Source: an uncultured Chloroflexus sp. (GTDB lineage: Bacteria; Chloroflexota; Chloroflexia; Chloroflexales; Chloroflexaceae). From it: DNA of 61,990 nucleotides. Within the stretch, counting starts at the first letter, position 1; every line of letters starts with the position of its first letter. Below the pieces are notes generated by a model. It saw only the letters and a program-made list of their open reading frames with translations. It was not told the DNA's origin and did no database searches. The DNA lies in NCBI RefSeq assembly GCF_937951745.1, contig NZ_CALFBQ010000041.1, positions 1 to 61,990 of the forward strand, in the 5' to 3' direction. Positions 42,911 to 50,059 of the stretch are shown here, piece by piece. The translations under genes were made by a program, and so were the position numbers.

Positions 42911-44551
42911 GTGAGCAGTATTAGCGGGCGGCGCATTGGCCGGTACGAGTTAATCGAGGAGCTGGGCCGCGGCGGGATGGCGCGCGTGTATCGGGCGCGT
43001 GACACCCAACTTCAGCGCATCGTTGCCCTCAAGGTGCTGGCTGCACAACTAAGCATGGACGCAGAGTTTATCAAGCGGTTCGAGCGCGAAGCGCGTACCG
43101 CCGCTAATCTGCGCCATCCGAATATCGTGACGGTATACGATATCGGTGAGGATCAGGGGCTGCACTATATCGCGATGGAGTACATTGACGGTTTGCCCTT
43201 GCATACCATTCTCGAACGGCATGTCGTGCTTGGGCTTGGCTATGCGATTGCCCTACTCGAACCAATTGCCGCCGCGCTCGATTACGCTCATCACGCTGGC
43301 GCTGTCCATCGCGATATCAAGCCGCATAATATTATGGTTGATCGCAATGGCCGGGTGGTGTTGACTGATTTCGGCATTGCCCAAACCCCCGAAACCGATG
43401 ATCAACGGCTGACTCGTACCGGCGTCTTTATGGGAACGCCGGAATACATTTCACCCGAACAGGCCGAGGCTCGCCGGGTTGACGGACGCAGCGATCTTTA
43501 TTCGCTGGCCGTGGTAGCCTACGAGATTATTGCCGGACGGGTGCCGTTTAGCGGGCCAACGCCGCAATTGATCGTCGCCCATGCCCAACTGCCGCCGCCG
43601 CCGATCTCTTCCATCGCCCCCGATTTACCGACTGATCTTGATTTAGTGCTGACCCGCGCACTGGCCAAACGCCCCGAACGGCGTTTCCAAACCGGCGCAG
43701 CCTTTATCGCTGCGCTCCGCGATATTGCTGATCGGAACGGGATTGTTCCCGCCACGGCTGCCGATCTGGCGGCGCTTGTCGCACTGCCGGCCCTCGATCA
43801 AGCCGAGCCGACAATACCAGCATTGACGGCCCAACCACGGGCAATGGCCGAGCCGCCAGCGCCCCAACCAGCGCCTAGCTCATATCCACCGGCAGGCTCC
43901 AACCGGCCAGCAGCGCTATCGGCCAGCGTTGTACCGAACCGCCCGGCTGCACCGCCTAACGCACCAAACAACCAACCGCTGGTTGCGCCACCGGCCCCGC
44001 CCGCCAAACCCCCTGCCCGGCGGAATACACCGGCCCATCCGTACGAGCACGGGAATATTGCGGTACCCAGCGATCGGGCCGATCAACTGCCGTTTTTCAT
44101 TATCGGCGGTATCTTGCTGGTGGTCGCCATTGCATTAATCGTGTTTGTGGCACGCAGTTTCAGCGATAACGCCGCACCCCCACCGGCGCCGACGGTTCCA
44201 TCCGCTCTGTCACCCACCTTGGCCGTGCCTCTGCCGACGGCTACGGCAACGTTTACAACCGTGCCGACAGCCCCCCCAACCGCAACACCTCTGCCTACCG
44301 ACACCCCATCACCGGTTCCACCGTCGCCAACTGCGCCGCCGCCACCACCGCCGCCAGTACCGACGGTAACACCATCGCCAACAGAGACGCCAACGCTGAC
44401 GGTAACACCATCGCCAACCCTAACGGGCACACCGGCTACCACCGGCACCCCGACGCCAGAAGGCACGCCGGCTACCACCAGTATTGCTACGCCGACAGAA
44501 ACTGCTACGCCACTGCCAACGCCAGTACCAGTAACACCGGTGAACCCATAA
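42911..44551 (+). CDS. PknB-type transmembrane Ser/Thr protein kinase
   Basis: 546 residues. The kinase domain (about 10-275) shows LGRGGMARVYRA, Lys in VALKVLA, HRDIKPHN with catalytic Asp135, LTDFGIAQ and GTPEYISPE, all intact. A Pro/Ala-rich linker leads to one membrane span near residues 395-417 (FFIIGGILLVVAIALIVFVA). Outside the cell there is only a Thr/Pro-rich repetitive tail of about 120 residues (TPSPT and TPT repeats), with no PASTA domain. The start is GTG 42911 with GGAG upstream. It is divergent from the FHA-winged-helix regulator, and the GH57-like gene follows after 44 bases. Confidence 0.93.
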   Translation: MSSISGRRIGRYELIEELGRGGMARVYRARDTQLQRIVALKVLAAQLSMDAEFIKRFEREARTAANLRHPNIVTVYDIGEDQGLHYIAMEYIDGLPLHTILERHVVLGLGYAIALLEPIAAALDYAHHAGAVHRDIKPHNIMVDRNGRVVLTDFGIAQTPETDDQRLTRTGVFMGTPEYISPEQAEARRVDGRSDLYSLAVVAYEIIAGRVPFSGPTPQLIVAHAQLPPPPISSIAPDLPTDLDLVLTRALAKRPERRFQTGAAFIAALRDIADRNGIVPATAADLAALVALPALDQAEPTIPALTAQPRAMAEPPAPQPAPSSYPPAGSNRPAALSASVVPNRPAAPPNAPNNQPLVAPPAPPAKPPARRNTPAHPYEHGNIAVPSDRADQLPFFIIGGILLVVAIALIVFVARSFSDNAAPPPAPTVPSALSPTLAVPLPTATATFTTVPTAPPTATPLPTDTPSPVPPSPTAPPPPPPPVPTVTPSPTETPTLTVTPSPTLTGTPATTGTPTPEGTPATTSIATPTETATPLPTPVPVTPVNP

Positions 44552-44595: not shown

Positions 44596-46053
44596 ATGAG
44601 CGAGGGCATTATGCCGGTCGCGTTTGTCATTGAAGTGCATATCCCATACGTGCGTCATCCCGGACGGCATCCTATTGGCGAAGAGTATCTGCACGCTTTT
44701 ACCGCACAGATGCTGATTCCCCTGCTCGATCTGGTCGGTGAATTGCAACGCCACCATCTACCGATCACGCTCGCCTTGGCATGCTCACCAGTTGCACTGG
44801 AACAGTGGCGCGACCGGGTTGTCAGCAAGCATTTTACGCAGTGGCTGGAAGATAAAATTGCTCGCCATCAAGCCGAACTCGCTCGATTTGAAGCGGAAGG
44901 CAATCGCCACGGTGCTTATCTCGCACGGTTTTACCTTGATTGGGATCGCCAAACGCTGCGCACATTCAATACTCGCTACCAGCGCAATTTGGCCGGGCGG
45001 CTGCAAGAATTAGTTATAACCGAGGTGCTTACGCCGCTTTGTTTGCCGGCCAGCCACGCCATTTTACCATTGCTAAGCCGTGAGAGCCTCGTGCGAGCGC
45101 AACTCGAGCACGGCTTGCTCTATATCTCGCGCCACCTCAAACGACCGGAAGGACTCTGGCTGCCCGGTTGCGCATGGCGACCGGGAATCGAGCAGATAGC
45201 GCTCGATTTGGATCTACGTTATGTCATTGTGGATCCAACTTACGTGCGCGCTGGCCAATTGCCCGGCTGGATCATCCCGCGTCGACTTGCAGCCATTGGG
45301 GTTGAGAGCGAACTATCCCGCCACATTTGGTCTACCGAACTAGGATATCCGGGTGATCCGCTCTACCGGAACGCTGCTGATCCAACCGGTTATACGGCCA
45401 ATGGCCTCAATGAGCCACAACCATATGATCCGTATGATGCGCTGCGGCGCGCGCAAGAACATGCCAACCATTTCGTCGAGCAACTCCTGTACCGGTTGAA
45501 TCACTTGCCGGCTGACACCACGATCGTGGTACCAATTGATGCTCGCTGGTGGGGAACCTGCTGGTTTGAAGGGCCAACATGGCTGCAAGCAGTATTAACC
45601 CGCTGCGCGACTGATGCTCGTCTCGGTTTGACGCATCCCGGAACGATACTGGCCGGCCTACGCACGGGCGAGACCGTTTCGCTGCACACTGATGCCCATT
45701 TCCCTCATTCCCTCTCGCGTTGGCAGTCGCCAAGCGCGCAGCGCTATTGGCAGGCACTCCACGACGCTGAACAACGGTTTGCTGATTTAATCGCACACTA
45801 CCCGGCAGTCGAAGGATTTCGCGAACGGGTACTGACGCAAGCGGCACGCGAAATATTGCTAGCTGAACAGAGTGATTGGGCTGAAGATCCGCAAGAATTG
45901 GGCTGGCAACGACACCTCGATCGCTTCGAGCAACTATTCGCGCTTGCGCGCCAAGAGTCGTTGAGCGCGACCGATCTCTTTACGCTTGAGCAGATCGAAA
46001 CGCACGACGCGATCTTTCCGGTGTTGAATTACCGCTTGTTTGGCAAGGGATGA
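44596..46053 (+). CDS. GH57 branching-enzyme-like protein lacking the catalytic nucleophile
   Basis: 485 residues, close to GH57 alpha-glucan branching enzymes. Family regions are recognisable: VHIPYVRHP (His15), the block LWLPGCAWRPG, WGTCWFEGPTW and a C-terminal DAIFPVLNYRLF like the DUF1957 part. In active enzymes the third block reads LPECAY with Glu as the nucleophile; here that residue is Gly191 (codon GGT), two base changes from Glu. The acid/base Asp appears kept as Asp315. Retaining transglycosylation is therefore unlikely, and a binding or regulatory role, or a different chemistry, is inferred. It probably shares a transcript with the kinase upstream. Confidence 0.8.
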   Translation: MSEGIMPVAFVIEVHIPYVRHPGRHPIGEEYLHAFTAQMLIPLLDLVGELQRHHLPITLALACSPVALEQWRDRVVSKHFTQWLEDKIARHQAELARFEAEGNRHGAYLARFYLDWDRQTLRTFNTRYQRNLAGRLQELVITEVLTPLCLPASHAILPLLSRESLVRAQLEHGLLYISRHLKRPEGLWLPGCAWRPGIEQIALDLDLRYVIVDPTYVRAGQLPGWIIPRRLAAIGVESELSRHIWSTELGYPGDPLYRNAADPTGYTANGLNEPQPYDPYDALRRAQEHANHFVEQLLYRLNHLPADTTIVVPIDARWWGTCWFEGPTWLQAVLTRCATDARLGLTHPGTILAGLRTGETVSLHTDAHFPHSLSRWQSPSAQRYWQALHDAEQRFADLIAHYPAVEGFRERVLTQAAREILLAEQSDWAEDPQELGWQRHLDRFEQLFALARQESLSATDLFTLEQIETHDAIFPVLNYRLFGKG

Positions 46054-46091: not shown

Positions 46092-46919
46092 TCATACCTC
46101 CCACCCCGCCGGTATGGTGTACGTTTCGCGCCGCCAGCGCCAACCCGGCTCTAAAATCTCTCCCGGCTCGGCGAAGTAGAGACTGTGTAGCGCCGCATGC
46201 AATACAGTCAACTGTTGCGCCCGGTTCCCCGGTTCGCCTAACGGATGACCAAACGGCCATGCCAGATGCAGGGTACGTGGCGGACGCACCTGTTCAGCAA
46301 TCGGCTTGAGACTGACGATACAAATCGTGCTGATGCCGGCGTCTTCGATGATGCGTGCGATCAGTCCCACGGACTGATTGCACAACCCTCAGGCTGGGGT
46401 AAGCAAGATAGCATCAACCTGCTCTTGCTTGAGGAAGCTGGCGACTTCAGGAGCAGTTTGCCGCAGTAAGGTTTCGAGATGGGGTGGTTCGATATGGCCC
46501 ATGAAGCTGTAGCAATCGGCCAGACTGCCAATAATCCCGCGCTGCGCCAACGAGCGCATCAATTCTAGCGGGAAGAGAATATTGAGATCACGCTCGGCAT
46601 CGGTGTGATCGTAGTAGTCGTGCGTGATAGTGAGATCGGCCACCGGCGTATCAGCCGGAATGCGGCGATAGGTAGGGTCACCGCGTGGATCGACCATATC
46701 AAACGGCGGTTGATCGTGCCGGTGAACGCCGCCGGTCGTCACTAGCGCAAAGCGAGCTTCGGCCAGCGGTTTACGCAGGGGGGTGAAGGGTACCGTATCG
46801 AAACTGAGCGCACGATACGCACCACCCCACAAGCGGGCCAATGCCGGTAGCTGCGAGAAGATCTGGCCGGTCAGCCGGTAGAGATCTTTGAGTGAGCGAT
46901 TGCGCCAGTCGCCGGTCAT
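46092..46919 (-). CDS. GrdB-family reductase subunit, probable selenoprotein (UGA at codon 177)
   Basis: One frame of 275 residues from ATG 46919 to stop 46092, crossed by a UGA at 46391-46389. The upstream part (residues 1-176) and downstream part (178-275) together match the glycine/sarcosine/betaine reductase selenoprotein B family. The junction reads ILLTPA-[UGA]-GLCNQSVGLIARIIE, so UGA falls in a UxxC redox motif where relatives have Sec or Cys. Directly after the UGA a hairpin is formed (46383-46355), as expected for a bacterial SECIS. GAGG lies six bases before the ATG. If UGA were a stop, the redox site and the last third would be lost. Substrate unknown; no selA/selB/selC/selD in the window. 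Confidence 0.75.
46355..46383 (-). promoter_or_regulatory. Candidate bacterial SECIS hairpin
   Basis: Five bases after the UGA the mRNA can fold GUGC-A-AUCAGUCC / loop GUG / GGACUGAU-C-GCAC: twelve pairs, one A-C mismatch, and a three-base apical loop that begins with G. The distance from UGA to the loop is 18 bases. These features agree with the known form of bacterial SECIS elements (short stem-loop just after the UGA, G near the start of the loop), to which SelB binds. Confidence 0.65.
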
Positions 46920-47005: not shown

Positions 47006-47878
47006 TTAACCGCGATTCAACGACCAGTCATACGGACGATAGACCAAGCGGCCTCGCTGCGCTTGTAGCAGCCATGCTCGGCGTTCGTCATCGGGCAGCG
47101 CCTGCCGCAAGAGTTGTACAATCCCACTGGGACCGCCAAAATCTTCGCGATACCAGTCGAAGATGCGCGACAGATGGATCTCACCGCGAGCCGGATCGAT
47201 GGTCACGTCAGCCTCAACAAAACTGCGCAGCGCCAGATCGAGCTGGGCATCGATCTGCTCAGCACTGTAGACGCCAATCGGCGGGCACGAACGGCTGGCG
47301 CAATTGAGTGCAAAGTGGATACGGACATCAGGCGGATCGATGATCCACGCGAGGCGCGGATCTCCGGCGGCAAATTGGGGGCCGGGAATAAAGGGATGGC
47401 CACGATTAGCGCGCAGGATGCCGTGCTCGATGTCGTTGAGCGAACAACGCTGGCCGCCGATGAGATAGGCCGCCGCCTGAAAGAAGCTCAAGCCGGCCAA
47501 TTCATTGGCAACGCTGGTCTGGACGCCAAAAGCAATGACGGCATCAATCACCAGCGCGTTGTAGAGGTTGATCCAGAAGGCCAGTCGCGTCGCCCGATCC
47601 GGCAACGAAGCCGGATCGAAGCGCTGCAACTGCGGGGTGAGTTCAGCACGGAAAGCGAGGTAAGCCGGATCCGTGCGGAGCCGATCGTAGGCCACCTGCG
47701 TACCGCTAGCATCCATCGCCTGTGCCTTAAACCGGTTGACTACCCGCTTGAGTTCGGCGGCCAACGCTGCCCCAGCGACCGTCGTCACCGGCACGGGGCC
47801 AGCGTTGAGCACGCTGCGCGCCCGATCGCCCAGCGCCAACCCAAATGCCGTTTCGCGCAACCAGACCAGTTGGCTCAT
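47006..47878 (-). CDS. DUF547 domain protein
   Basis: 290 residues. The DUF547 signatures are present: LAFWINLYNALVIDAV near residue 95, SLNDIEHGILR, and HFALNCASRSCPPIGVYSAEQID with two Cys. The fold is thought to be papain/transglutaminase-like, but the function is unknown. There is no signal peptide. Its ATG overlaps the stop of the receptor-like gene by four bases (ATGA), placing it at the end of the ATP-grasp/receptor operon. Confidence 0.85.
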   Translation of the reverse strand: MSQLVWLRETAFGLALGDRARSVLNAGPVPVTTVAGAALAAELKRVVNRFKAQAMDASGTQVAYDRLRTDPAYLAFRAELTPQLQRFDPASLPDRATRLAFWINLYNALVIDAVIAFGVQTSVANELAGLSFFQAAAYLIGGQRCSLNDIEHGILRANRGHPFIPGPQFAAGDPRLAWIIDPPDVRIHFALNCASRSCPPIGVYSAEQIDAQLDLALRSFVEADVTIDPARGEIHLSRIFDWYREDFGGPSGIVQLLRQALPDDERRAWLLQAQRGRLVYRPYDWSLNRG

Positions 47879-48657
47879 AGGTTACTCCCTAGCAGTTGCC
47901 GGAACGAGGCGATTGCTGCGGCAGTGCGCGGGCCAGGCCACGTTAGCGCCATGCCATCACAGAACGCGATTTGGCAACGAGCGGCAATGTCGCTAAACGC
48001 CGGCAGATCGCGCTCGCTAAAAGGATACGGCTCGCTCGGCAAGAGGATCATATCGGGATTGAGGGCGAGCAGTTCGGGCAGCGGCGCGCGCGGGTAGCGG
48101 CCCGGCAGCGCTGCGGCTACATTGATCCCGCCACTGAGGCGCAAGAGATCGCCAGCGTAGGTATCTTGCCCCACCGCCATCCACGGATCACGCCAAATCA
48201 ACGCCAGTACCCGGCGCGCCGGCGGCGGCGGATCGGCCATAGCTGCCTGCATCGCGGCAACCATTGGCGCAGCCGTGACCGCCACCCCAAGCGCGTCAGC
48301 CAGCGCTGCCAACTGTATGGCGGCATCGGCCACGCTGCGAATGGCGGTAACATAGACATTGACACCGGCAGCAGCTAAAGCCAGCACATCGCGCTCACGG
48401 TTCTCTTCTTGCTCGGCGATGACCAAATCGGGGTGCAGCGCGAGAATCGCTGTCCGATCCGGGTTCTTAGTACCGCGCAGTCGCGGCAGATGCGCGATGG
48501 CTGTTGACGGCTCGATGCAATAGTCGGTAATCCCCACTACCCGCTCGCCGGCGCCTACGCTAAACAGCCACTCGGTCATACTCGGCACCAACGAGACAAT
48601 CCGTTGCGGCGGCGCGACCAACTCGATTGTCCGGCCAACGGCATCGCGCACTTGCAT
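47875..48657 (-). CDS. Helical-backbone metal/corrinoid receptor-like protein without signal peptide (BtuF-like)
   Basis: 260 residues of the class III periplasmic-binding fold: RIVSLVPSMTEWLF, the strand VGITDYC, LHPDLVIAEQEEN, a long central helix, and LALNPDMILLPSEPYPF in the second lobe, as in BtuF and FecB relatives. The gene starts at ATG 48657 (GGAGG six bases upstream) directly with the mature fold, so the protein should stay in the cytoplasm. No ABC permease or ATPase is adjacent. Binding of a corrinoid or metal chelate is possible, but transport is unlikely. It sits between an ATP-grasp gene and DUF547. Confidence 0.8.
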   Translation of the reverse strand: MQVRDAVGRTIELVAPPQRIVSLVPSMTEWLFSVGAGERVVGITDYCIEPSTAIAHLPRLRGTKNPDRTAILALHPDLVIAEQEENRERDVLALAAAGVNVYVTAIRSVADAAIQLAALADALGVAVTAAPMVAAMQAAMADPPPPARRVLALIWRDPWMAVGQDTYAGDLLRLSGGINVAAALPGRYPRAPLPELLALNPDMILLPSEPYPFSERDLPAFSDIAARCQIAFCDGMALTWPGPRTAAAIASFRQLLGSNL

Positions 48658-48676
48658 CACGTCCTCCGCACAGTCA

Positions 48677-50059
48677 TCAACCATCGATCACGAAGACCGG
48701 AACGGTGCTGCCGCCGCCGGCAGTGACATTCAGCAACGTCACCGTAGACAGCCGGCACAGACAGCCATTAACTTCGGTGCCAAACAGGAACGGATCGCTA
48801 TCAACCAACCGCTCGCCGATCACGACCTGCCCATCAACCAGTGCCGGATACGGCTCATACGCAATGGTCACGCGCTCTTGCACTACAAACGGCGAGGCAA
48901 GGGCAGCATTCAGCGCAGCATCCCACTCGGCGGCACTCGCCTCCCAGCCGATGGTAATCCCCTTGCCGCCGTACTCATCGTTCGGCTTTAGCACCAACCG
49001 CTCGCGGTTAGCTCGGGCAAAGGCCAGCAAATCAATCGTCTCACCCTGATAGGTCGTCTGGCCGGATCGCACGACGCGCGTCCATGGCACGTGCGCAGCA
49101 ACCGCAGCGCGCTGTTCAGCGCTCAGCGGATCGTGGAACCGTTCATCAGACAGCAGGGCAAACAGCGACTTCTTGTGCAGCAATTTGGCGCGAAACGAAT
49201 TGACGATTACGCATGCGCCGGCGGCATACGCCTGCACCAGCGGATGGCTGAGCGCATCATCACCGTAGTGAGTAAGAAACTCGCTGGTTAACACCCGTTT
49301 AAAGACGATTGTGACTAGCGTTTCGCTACCGTCTTCCAACCGCGCCCACAACTGGCCATCGTGGAAGGCAAGGTCTTGCGGCGCGCAGATCACCGCCGGC
49401 AAGCCGTGCTCATTGAAATAGCGCCGGAACATCTCGAATTCAGTAGCAGTCGGCACGCCGCGCCAATCAACAATCGCCACCTGCGGCTCTTGGCCGGGGC
49501 TACCGGCTGCTCGCCAGCAATCCATCAGCGTGCGCAGCATGTACGGGCGGGCAGGCAACGGCATCAGCGAATAGCGTTTGGCGAACTCTTCCATCACTGG
49601 CATGGCCAAAAAAGCCTGCGCCAGCAAATCTTCGTAGGCAATCGCCGCCGGACTCTCGGCGTTATACTCAACAAATTGCAGCGACGAACCATCCACAGTG
49701 AGGAAGGTATCCATCCGGGAATGGGCGCTCGGTTCGAGATAACCGGGATGCATCGCGATCAGGCGCTCTTCGAGGGGGGTGAGCATTAACGTATCGCGCA
49801 CCGCTTGGCCGGTTTCGTTGTGTTCAAATGCTGCGGCTACGATCGCACGCGCCGCTTCAGCGACTTGTTGCGTTCCTCGTCGTAACAAATCGTACTGCGA
49901 TGCCGTCATCAACCGCGGGCGCAATACGGTAGCCAGCGGACGCTCGCCGAAATAGAGCTGGCGGGCGCGCATTTCTTCGGTTAGCCGCTGCCATGATGCG
50001 GCTGCCAGCGCCGGATCGAGCAGAGCATGGTAATCGGCGATTGCCTGTGCAAGGGTCAT
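48677..50059 (-). CDS. ATP-grasp family protein, ligase-like
   Basis: 460 residues. The ATP-grasp nucleotide site is visible in the C-terminal half (ERLVLKPNDEYGGKGITIGW, then PFVVQERV), and the N-terminal half contains FVEYNAESPAAIAYEDLL. The domain order recalls glutathionylspermidine-synthase-like or circularly permuted ATP-grasp enzymes, which join a carboxylate to an amine through an acyl phosphate. AAGGA precedes the ATG. It is the first gene of a short operon with the receptor-like and DUF547 genes, and another ATP-grasp gene lies just upstream on the same strand. Substrates are unknown. Confidence 0.75.
   Translation of the reverse strand: MTLAQAIADYHALLDPALAAASWQRLTEEMRARQLYFGERPLATVLRPRLMTASQYDLLRRGTQQVAEAARAIVAAAFEHNETGQAVRDTLMLTPLEERLIAMHPGYLEPSAHSRMDTFLTVDGSSLQFVEYNAESPAAIAYEDLLAQAFLAMPVMEEFAKRYSLMPLPARPYMLRTLMDCWRAAGSPGQEPQVAIVDWRGVPTATEFEMFRRYFNEHGLPAVICAPQDLAFHDGQLWARLEDGSETLVTIVFKRVLTSEFLTHYGDDALSHPLVQAYAAGACVIVNSFRAKLLHKKSLFALLSDERFHDPLSAEQRAAVAAHVPWTRVVRSGQTTYQGETIDLLAFARANRERLVLKPNDEYGGKGITIGWEASAAEWDAALNAALASPFVVQERVTIAYEPYPALVDGQVVIGERLVDSDPFLFGTEVNGCLCRLSTVTLLNVTAGGGSTVPVFVIDG

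Follow-up and report, generated by a model that had tools for sequence, protein, structure and literature searches.

Proteins of the PrdB family have been in print as selenoproteins since at least 2005. In the accessible portions of the relevant papers, PrdB with a UXXC motif is the third most abundant selenoprotein family of the Sargasso Sea, with 42 genes (PMC1088965), and the Global Ocean Sampling data contain 235 PrdB selenoproteins along with 110 homologues that have cysteine (PMC2398784). These portions further list a proline reductase for Anaeromyxobacter dehalogenans and Geobacter uraniumreducens (PMC1794560), count the enzyme in 110 organisms (PMC5029168) and, in a 2026 review, describe the family with UxxC only and remark that selenoproteins are rarely kept by aerobic bacteria (PMC13188914). 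For the Chloroflexi three selenoproteins in three families are counted but not named in the portion accessible (PMC1794560), so that the Chloroflexus member described here may already be among them; full-text searches of the PMC literature, within the text they reach, returned no description of this gene. Since PrdB-family selenoproteins from these two marine metagenomes are already in print (PMC1088965, PMC2398784), the gene is less of a surprise than was first thought.

The gene lies in a window of 61,990 nucleotides, which is one entire contig (NZ_CALFBQ010000041.1) of the draft genome of an uncultured Chloroflexus sp. (4.25 Mb in 94 contigs, 99.39% complete). A mechanical listing of open reading frames gives two separate frames here, 46389-46919 (176 aa) and 46092-46385 (97 aa). 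A sequence-only reading of the window had joined them into one gene crossed by a UGA, and its coordinates, codon number and UxxC motif all proved right, the strand being minus. Read through, the two ordinary frames form a single frame of 275 residues with UGA as codon 177 (LLTPA-U-GLCNQ), and the sequence TGAGGGTTGTGC..., which corresponds to positions 46391-46371, fixes the TGA at 46389-46391. The features of the locus are as follows:

46092..46919, minus strand: PrdB-like selenoprotein gene, 275 residues, Sec at codon 177; the same TGA occurs in homologues
46389..46391, minus strand: codon 177, an in-frame UGA that opens the UxxC motif (U-G-L-C); TGA or Cys in homologues
46380..46382, minus strand: TGC encoding Cys180, the putative resolving residue of the UxxC motif
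46355..46383, minus strand: SECIS-like hairpin with a 13-column stem (12 pairs, 1 mismatch); synonymous constraint and covariation
46368..46370, minus strand: hairpin loop GUG
46092..46094, minus strand: terminal stop TGA of the PrdB-like gene

The closest named family is PrdB. The TIGR04483 (PrdB) profile spans residues 45-247 (E 3.3e-49), and thus, as the sequence-only reading had held, both sides of the UGA belong to one family. That reading had named the family GrdB, which is borne out to the extent that PF07355 (GRDB) matches residues 39-174 with 40.2 bits against a gathering cut-off of 22; however, the protein is closer to PrdB than to GrdB (167.5 vs 59.5 bits), both scores falling below the curated cut-offs of the respective profiles. 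Compared with clostridial PrdB (PrdAB, TIGR04483) it is alike over residues 45-247 and in the position of the UxxC motif, which in two annotated clostridial examples has a selenocysteine encoded by a TGA aligned with codon 177. It differs in a longer N-terminal part and in the replacement of the clostridial FMGGGG by FMGHIEPPH. With GrdB, the selenoprotein B of glycine/sarcosine/betaine reductase (PF07355, TIGR01917/01918), it has the PF07355 match and the UxxC region in common, but only the C-terminal part of the profile is matched (PF07355 positions 210-345 of 347; TIGR01917 positions 206-402 of 431), and it scores 59.5 bits where glycine reductase B (TIGR01917) requires 602.2, and 65.4 where the subfamily requires 65.45. 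By their published description, rather than by sequence, the 'Proline reductase PrdB' selenoproteins of the ocean metagenomes are comparable in family, in UxxC motif and in the occurrence of both Sec and Cys forms, as far as the accessible portions of the two papers go (PMC1088965, PMC2398784); the Chloroflexus gene differs from them in having a defined genome background.

These comparisons bear on whether we are dealing with a genuine small subunit of D-proline reductase, which would reduce D-proline together with PrdA. Such an enzyme is suggested by the best named family and by the 35-37% identity to two annotated clostridial PrdB proteins, with which the Sec position is in common. Nevertheless, the 167.5 bits lie well short of the TIGR04483 equivalog cut-off of 300, which those two proteins exceed (424.7 and 310.2 bits), and the host genome lacks a match to the PrdA/GrdE family (PF09338), the family of the partner proprotein PrdA. 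A PF09338 search covering 150 genomes of the class found no match in 149 of them, the host included; as a positive control the profile recognises an annotated PrdA (80.2 bits). The expectation of the sequence-only reading that the rest of glycine reductase would be missing accordingly held for PF09338, the family searched. As neither the score nor the partner is found, the protein shares family and redox motif with PrdB but does not qualify as a D-proline reductase, and we regard that identity as very improbable. The best reading of the Chloroflexus PrdB-like protein is a partnerless selenol/thiol reductase. The sole PF09338 gene in the 150 class genomes (L130, G099:C294:5640-7557, 291.7 bits) adjoins a long frame that matches the PrdB-like family weakly, and this locus is a candidate for a true glycine/betaine-type reductase in Chloroflexota.

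We then turned to the conservation of codon 177. The nearest full-length named relatives among the matches listed are from a Chloroflexota bacterium (97% identity) and Chloroflexus islandicus isl-2 (95%). All 80 of the named relatives compared, the best 80 of at least 587, carry TGA at codon 177; by title they are assigned to Chloroflexota, Nitrospirota, former deltaproteobacterial groups and a small number of other taxa. The pattern used to collect them (C-[NHQ]-[QR]-S-V...) began at Cys180 and hence did not require the TGA, yet it does not fit the Cys homologues, so this uniformity denotes constancy within the clade and not across the whole family. A search of the class genomes recovered PrdB-like homologues in 54 of 150 (63 match rows), and among the 48 loci examined at codon 177 we found 45 with TGA, 2 in which the TGA lies one column off, giving a U-x-x-x-C motif, and 1 with Gly.

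The cysteine forms emerged from a search of 400 genomes of the phylum with a relative containing two TGA codons as the query, which found homologues in 98. Thirty loci returned by this search have Cys (6) or TGA (24) at the position of codon 177; eight further loci, chosen because no stop was listed for them, all carry Cys, and two chosen for having two listed TGA codons both have TGA. Two plasmid-borne alphaproteobacterial homologues, from Roseomonas haemaphysalidis and Haematobacter massiliensis and named 'Glycine/sarcosine/betaine reductase selenoprotein B family protein', belong to the same family and have CPVC and CPIC in place of UxxC, i.e. Cys for Sec, at 36% and 32% identity respectively. 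In total there are 16 of these more distant Cys homologues, 14 from Chloroflexota and these two, so that the Sec or Cys which the sequence-only reading had anticipated on alignment of homologues is indeed what is seen. The exchange can be confined to a single residue within a stretch, as between the Sec form TAGUPLCHRTVV (L256) and the Cys forms TAGCPLCHRTVV (L261, L264). Bacterial selenoprotein genes are expected to have an in-frame UGA where Cys stands in homologues, as is the case here.

Bacterial SECIS elements are described, in the accessible portion of the source, as stem-loops that immediately follow the UGA and have a guanosine in their small apical loop (PMC1088965). The Chloroflexus gene has just such a stem-loop directly 3' of its UGA. 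The hairpin begins five bases after the UGA, has 12 pairs and one A-C mismatch, and reaches its GUG loop after 18 bases, in agreement with the sequence-only reading. We considered a chance hairpin and found its folding energy indecisive, since it is only slightly out of the ordinary (z -1.76, with 13 of 200 shuffles folding equally well); synonymous constraint and covariation argue against chance. In 29 Chloroflexia sequences the synonymous diversity of codons 182-187, five of which can be scored, is 0.13 of expectation, against 0.89 +/- 0.14 (s.d.) for a further 70 conserved codons (p 1e-4 in a rank test), and those six-codon stretches of the gene that have the lowest values overlap these hairpin codons. 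The mean rises to 0.49 (p 0.017) when codons 178-188 are taken together. At 58 loci, nearly all of them outside Chloroflexota by title, the corresponding values are 0.52 (4 codons) and 0.95 (67 codons; p 5e-4).

Covariation is clearest between hairpin columns 15 and 25, the third base of codon 182 and the first base of the Leu186 codon, which are G-C in 82, A-U in 13 and mixed in none of 95 distinct sequences (out of 118), these sequences being related and the counts therefore not independent events. Column 25 is the best partner of column 15 (mutual information 0.576 vs 0.111 for the next), and the silent exchange of CAG...CTG to CAA...TTG is seen in Desulfobacterales (L174), Nitrospirae (L182) and Deltaproteobacteria (L218). 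For column 16 the intended partner, column 24, merely ties with column 37. Measures of the whole helix give a mixed picture: all 500 shuffles are exceeded for the percentage paired, for the cells changed on both sides and for the covariation score, whereas 160 of the 500 reach the observed number of pairs changed on both sides and 205 that of further pair types, and sliding the partners by +2 yields 12 cells changed on both sides vs 6 in the actual structure. The pair between columns 6 and 34 is not formed in 27 of 34 distinct sequences, and the lower stem is weak across relatives. Because of this, support is confined to the upper part of the stem, roughly six to eight pairs capped by a GUN loop. 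By inspection of the sequences, the hairpin CAGUCC-GUN-GGACUG is missing from the Cys loci among the 30 phylum loci. The comparative sequence evidence of constraint and of covariation at columns 15 and 25 thus indicates that the hairpin is more than chance and is under selection at the level of RNA.

A true stop, i.e. a pseudogene or a sequencing error that leaves two short frames of one broken gene, would explain why the mechanical listing yields two frames. However, the same TGA at the same codon in every one of the 80 relatives drawn from several phyla, along with the silent RNA covariation of the hairpin, makes such a breakage vanishingly improbable. What looks like a gene broken by a stop is, very probably, a single intact gene in which UGA is decoded as selenocysteine.

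The selenocysteine machinery that the sequence-only reading predicted is present in the host genome in the form of selA (568 bits), selB (above cut-off, with 333 bits from those pieces that share a frame) and a tRNA-Sec (74.4 bits), which ARAGORN too calls as tRNA-Sec with anticodon TCA. Since the tRNA-Sec model also matches all 14 control genomes, exceeding its cut-off in 5, this call rests on its score together with ARAGORN; the model is also over cut-off at two further places of the host genome (51.6 and 47.2 bits). Across the class, selA exceeds its cut-off in 50 of the 54 genomes that carry the PrdB-like gene and in 66 of the 96 that do not (Fisher p 9e-4), an association partly confounded by genome completeness. 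The four exceptions comprise three genomes that are 51-86% complete, one of which carries a locus without the TGA, and one genome in which selA is split over two contigs.

With this machinery at hand, a changed code or leaky read-through by which UGA would be read as Trp or Cys, and which would equally give a full-length product, appears extremely improbable: homologues substitute Cys and not Trp, tRNA-Sec, selA and selB are present, and TGA serves as the end both of the PrdB-like gene and of the adjacent frame 44596-46053. The genes of relatives stop with TGA, TAA or TAG, which shows the terminal TGA at 46092-46094 to be a true stop. Decoding of the internal UGA as selenocysteine, the central claim of the sequence-only reading, is thus supported by selA, selB and tRNA-Sec, by the Sec/Cys exchange and by the constrained, covarying hairpin.

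The prediction of the machinery failed in one component, as no selD match above cut-off is found in the host draft assembly. Its two weak matches (40.5 and 25.3 bits) were considered as a selD hidden elsewhere and rejected; one adjoins a frame that we take to be HypD-like and itself resembles what is presumably HypE, and the other resembles what is presumably PurM. Five of the six other congeners with the PrdB-like gene have a selD over cut-off with one in-frame TGA, the sixth, without selD, being 82% complete, and in the sole congener lacking the gene (G058) neither selA nor selD is over cut-off. It could be argued that the gene retains its Sec codon by descent in a strain that has lost selD, with the UGA now mostly terminating translation and the gene decaying. 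In line with this, not only selD is missing: the approximately 20 kb surrounding selD in G050, taken as Chloroflexus islandicus, have no close match in the host assembly, and when 10 kb and 20 kb regions from there were compared with it the longer matches reached only 66-74% identity, and the others were short and resembled repeats. Against it, selA, selB, tRNA-Sec and the PrdB-like frame are all intact, the draft assembly consists of 94 contigs, and the closest relative (G066, with a 97% identical protein) has its selD on a 5.5-kb contig. We consider such decay unlikely, and because five of six other gene-bearing congeners have selD, an unassembled region is a likelier cause of its absence than loss.

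An AlphaFold model of the protein, with Cys in place of Sec, is of high confidence (pLDDT 92.3, pTM 0.91) and has a strand (170-174) and a helix (180-193) around residue 177. Searches by sequence found no relative of solved structure at E values up to 1; Foldseek gave no match at E 0.001 or better, the best being 0.012, and the best VIA-align Z was 7.8, to LacI-type and binding-protein chains, a level common for unrelated alpha/beta folds, and we take these comparisons as evidence neither of function nor of a new fold. Across 43 sequences from the clade, Sec177 and Cys180 are invariant, as are, among others, His66, His100, Tyr103, His105, Asp111, His142, Arg215 and His225. Tyr103, Asp111 and Arg215 are also invariant in a wider set of 27, in which none of those five histidines is.

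Based on these observations we propose that SelB, bound to the downstream hairpin, would bring Sec-tRNA-Sec to UGA 177 and so allow synthesis of a single 275-residue protein. In the modelled alpha/beta domain Sec177 would be placed between the strand and the start of the helix, as the nucleophile of the UxxC pair, and would attack an oxidised or electrophilic substrate; a Sec177-Cys180 selenenylsulfide would then form and be reset by a thiol donor of the thioredoxin type. Judging from the UxxC motif and from membership in the GrdB/PrdB family, such a cycle, with selenolate attack, Cys180 as the resolving thiol and a thioredoxin-like donor, is likely. The substrate would be a small molecule or a disulfide, and since no PrdA/GrdE-family partner was found it is probably not D-proline as handled in clostridia. 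Taken together, a PrdB-like selenoprotein with SelB- and hairpin-dependent Sec insertion at UGA 177, UxxC redox chemistry and a substrate that is probably other than D-proline is the best explanation of the locus, and we hold it to be likely.

The homologues also include several departures from the UxxC motif. Seven of the 48 class loci, each from a different Chloroflexota genome and together covering four families, have TGA at both redox positions, three codons apart, in the sequence U-PI-U-HQSV:

L110-L116, in G121, G097, G065, G059, G098, G095 and G009 (e.g. L115:1434-2252): UxxU loci of the PrdB-like family

In six of them selA exceeds its cut-off; the seventh genome, 86% complete, has no selA over cut-off but does have a selD with a TGA. 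The hairpin of the UxxU genes differs from that of the Chloroflexus gene. UxxU motifs are in print for Prx-like proteins and a few other families, and the accessible portions of the same two papers contain no UxxU for PrdB (PMC2398784, PMC13188914). This UxxU subfamily is the most unusual feature that we encountered and is more novel than the main finding. Other odd motifs are U-P-H-V-C in L117 and L125 (G008, G016), where the spacing exceeds that of the usual UxxC by one residue, UPRD in L237 (G222), which lacks the second Cys, and GPLS in L118 (G001), which lacks Sec or Cys at both places.

A comparison of gene-neighborhoods between the window and the 80 named loci (the best 80 of at least 587) uncovered no neighbor that points to the substrate. 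The largest cluster of neighbors, present at 26 loci, resembles an antisense shadow of the PrdB-like gene itself. In Chloroflexus the neighbors encode a DUF547 protein, a periplasmic binding protein, an ATP-grasp protein, a GH57-like protein and a protein kinase, and they recur chiefly inside the genus and close to it; further away there are isolated look-alikes. At 47006-50059 of the window, on the minus strand, the genes for the DUF547, the periplasmic binding protein and a circularly permuted ATP-grasp protein run with short gaps toward the PrdB-like gene, with which they possibly form a transcription unit. Twelve loci among the 80 named ones (L186, L194 and L215, for instance), which belong to the former Deltaproteobacteria and Nitrospirota, have a nearby gene, mostly upstream and on the same strand, that we take to be rhodanese-like; none was seen in Chloroflexus. 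The protein kinase gene (42911-44551) contains short tandem repeats with periods of 36 and 24 at 44340-44433, in the part encoding its Pro/Thr-rich C-terminus.

Ordinary gene finding splits the PrdB-like gene in two, and its correct reading adds a conserved selenoprotein both to Chloroflexus and to the family. As similar proteins have been named proline reductase in print and the partner is missing here, a widespread family may be carrying a misleading name. A broader proposal, for and against which we see the balance as even, is that PrdB-like proteins without PrdA constitute a separate family of single-subunit selenol reductases, with no pyruvoyl partner and a substrate unrelated to proline, which would be found in Chloroflexota, there also in a UxxU version, and probably in Nitrospirota and the former Deltaproteobacteria. 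The interest of the gene therefore lies in the reaction catalyzed by the partnerless PrdB-like proteins, and Chloroflexus islandicus isl-2, with its 95% identical protein, is a named and close host in which this reaction is testable.
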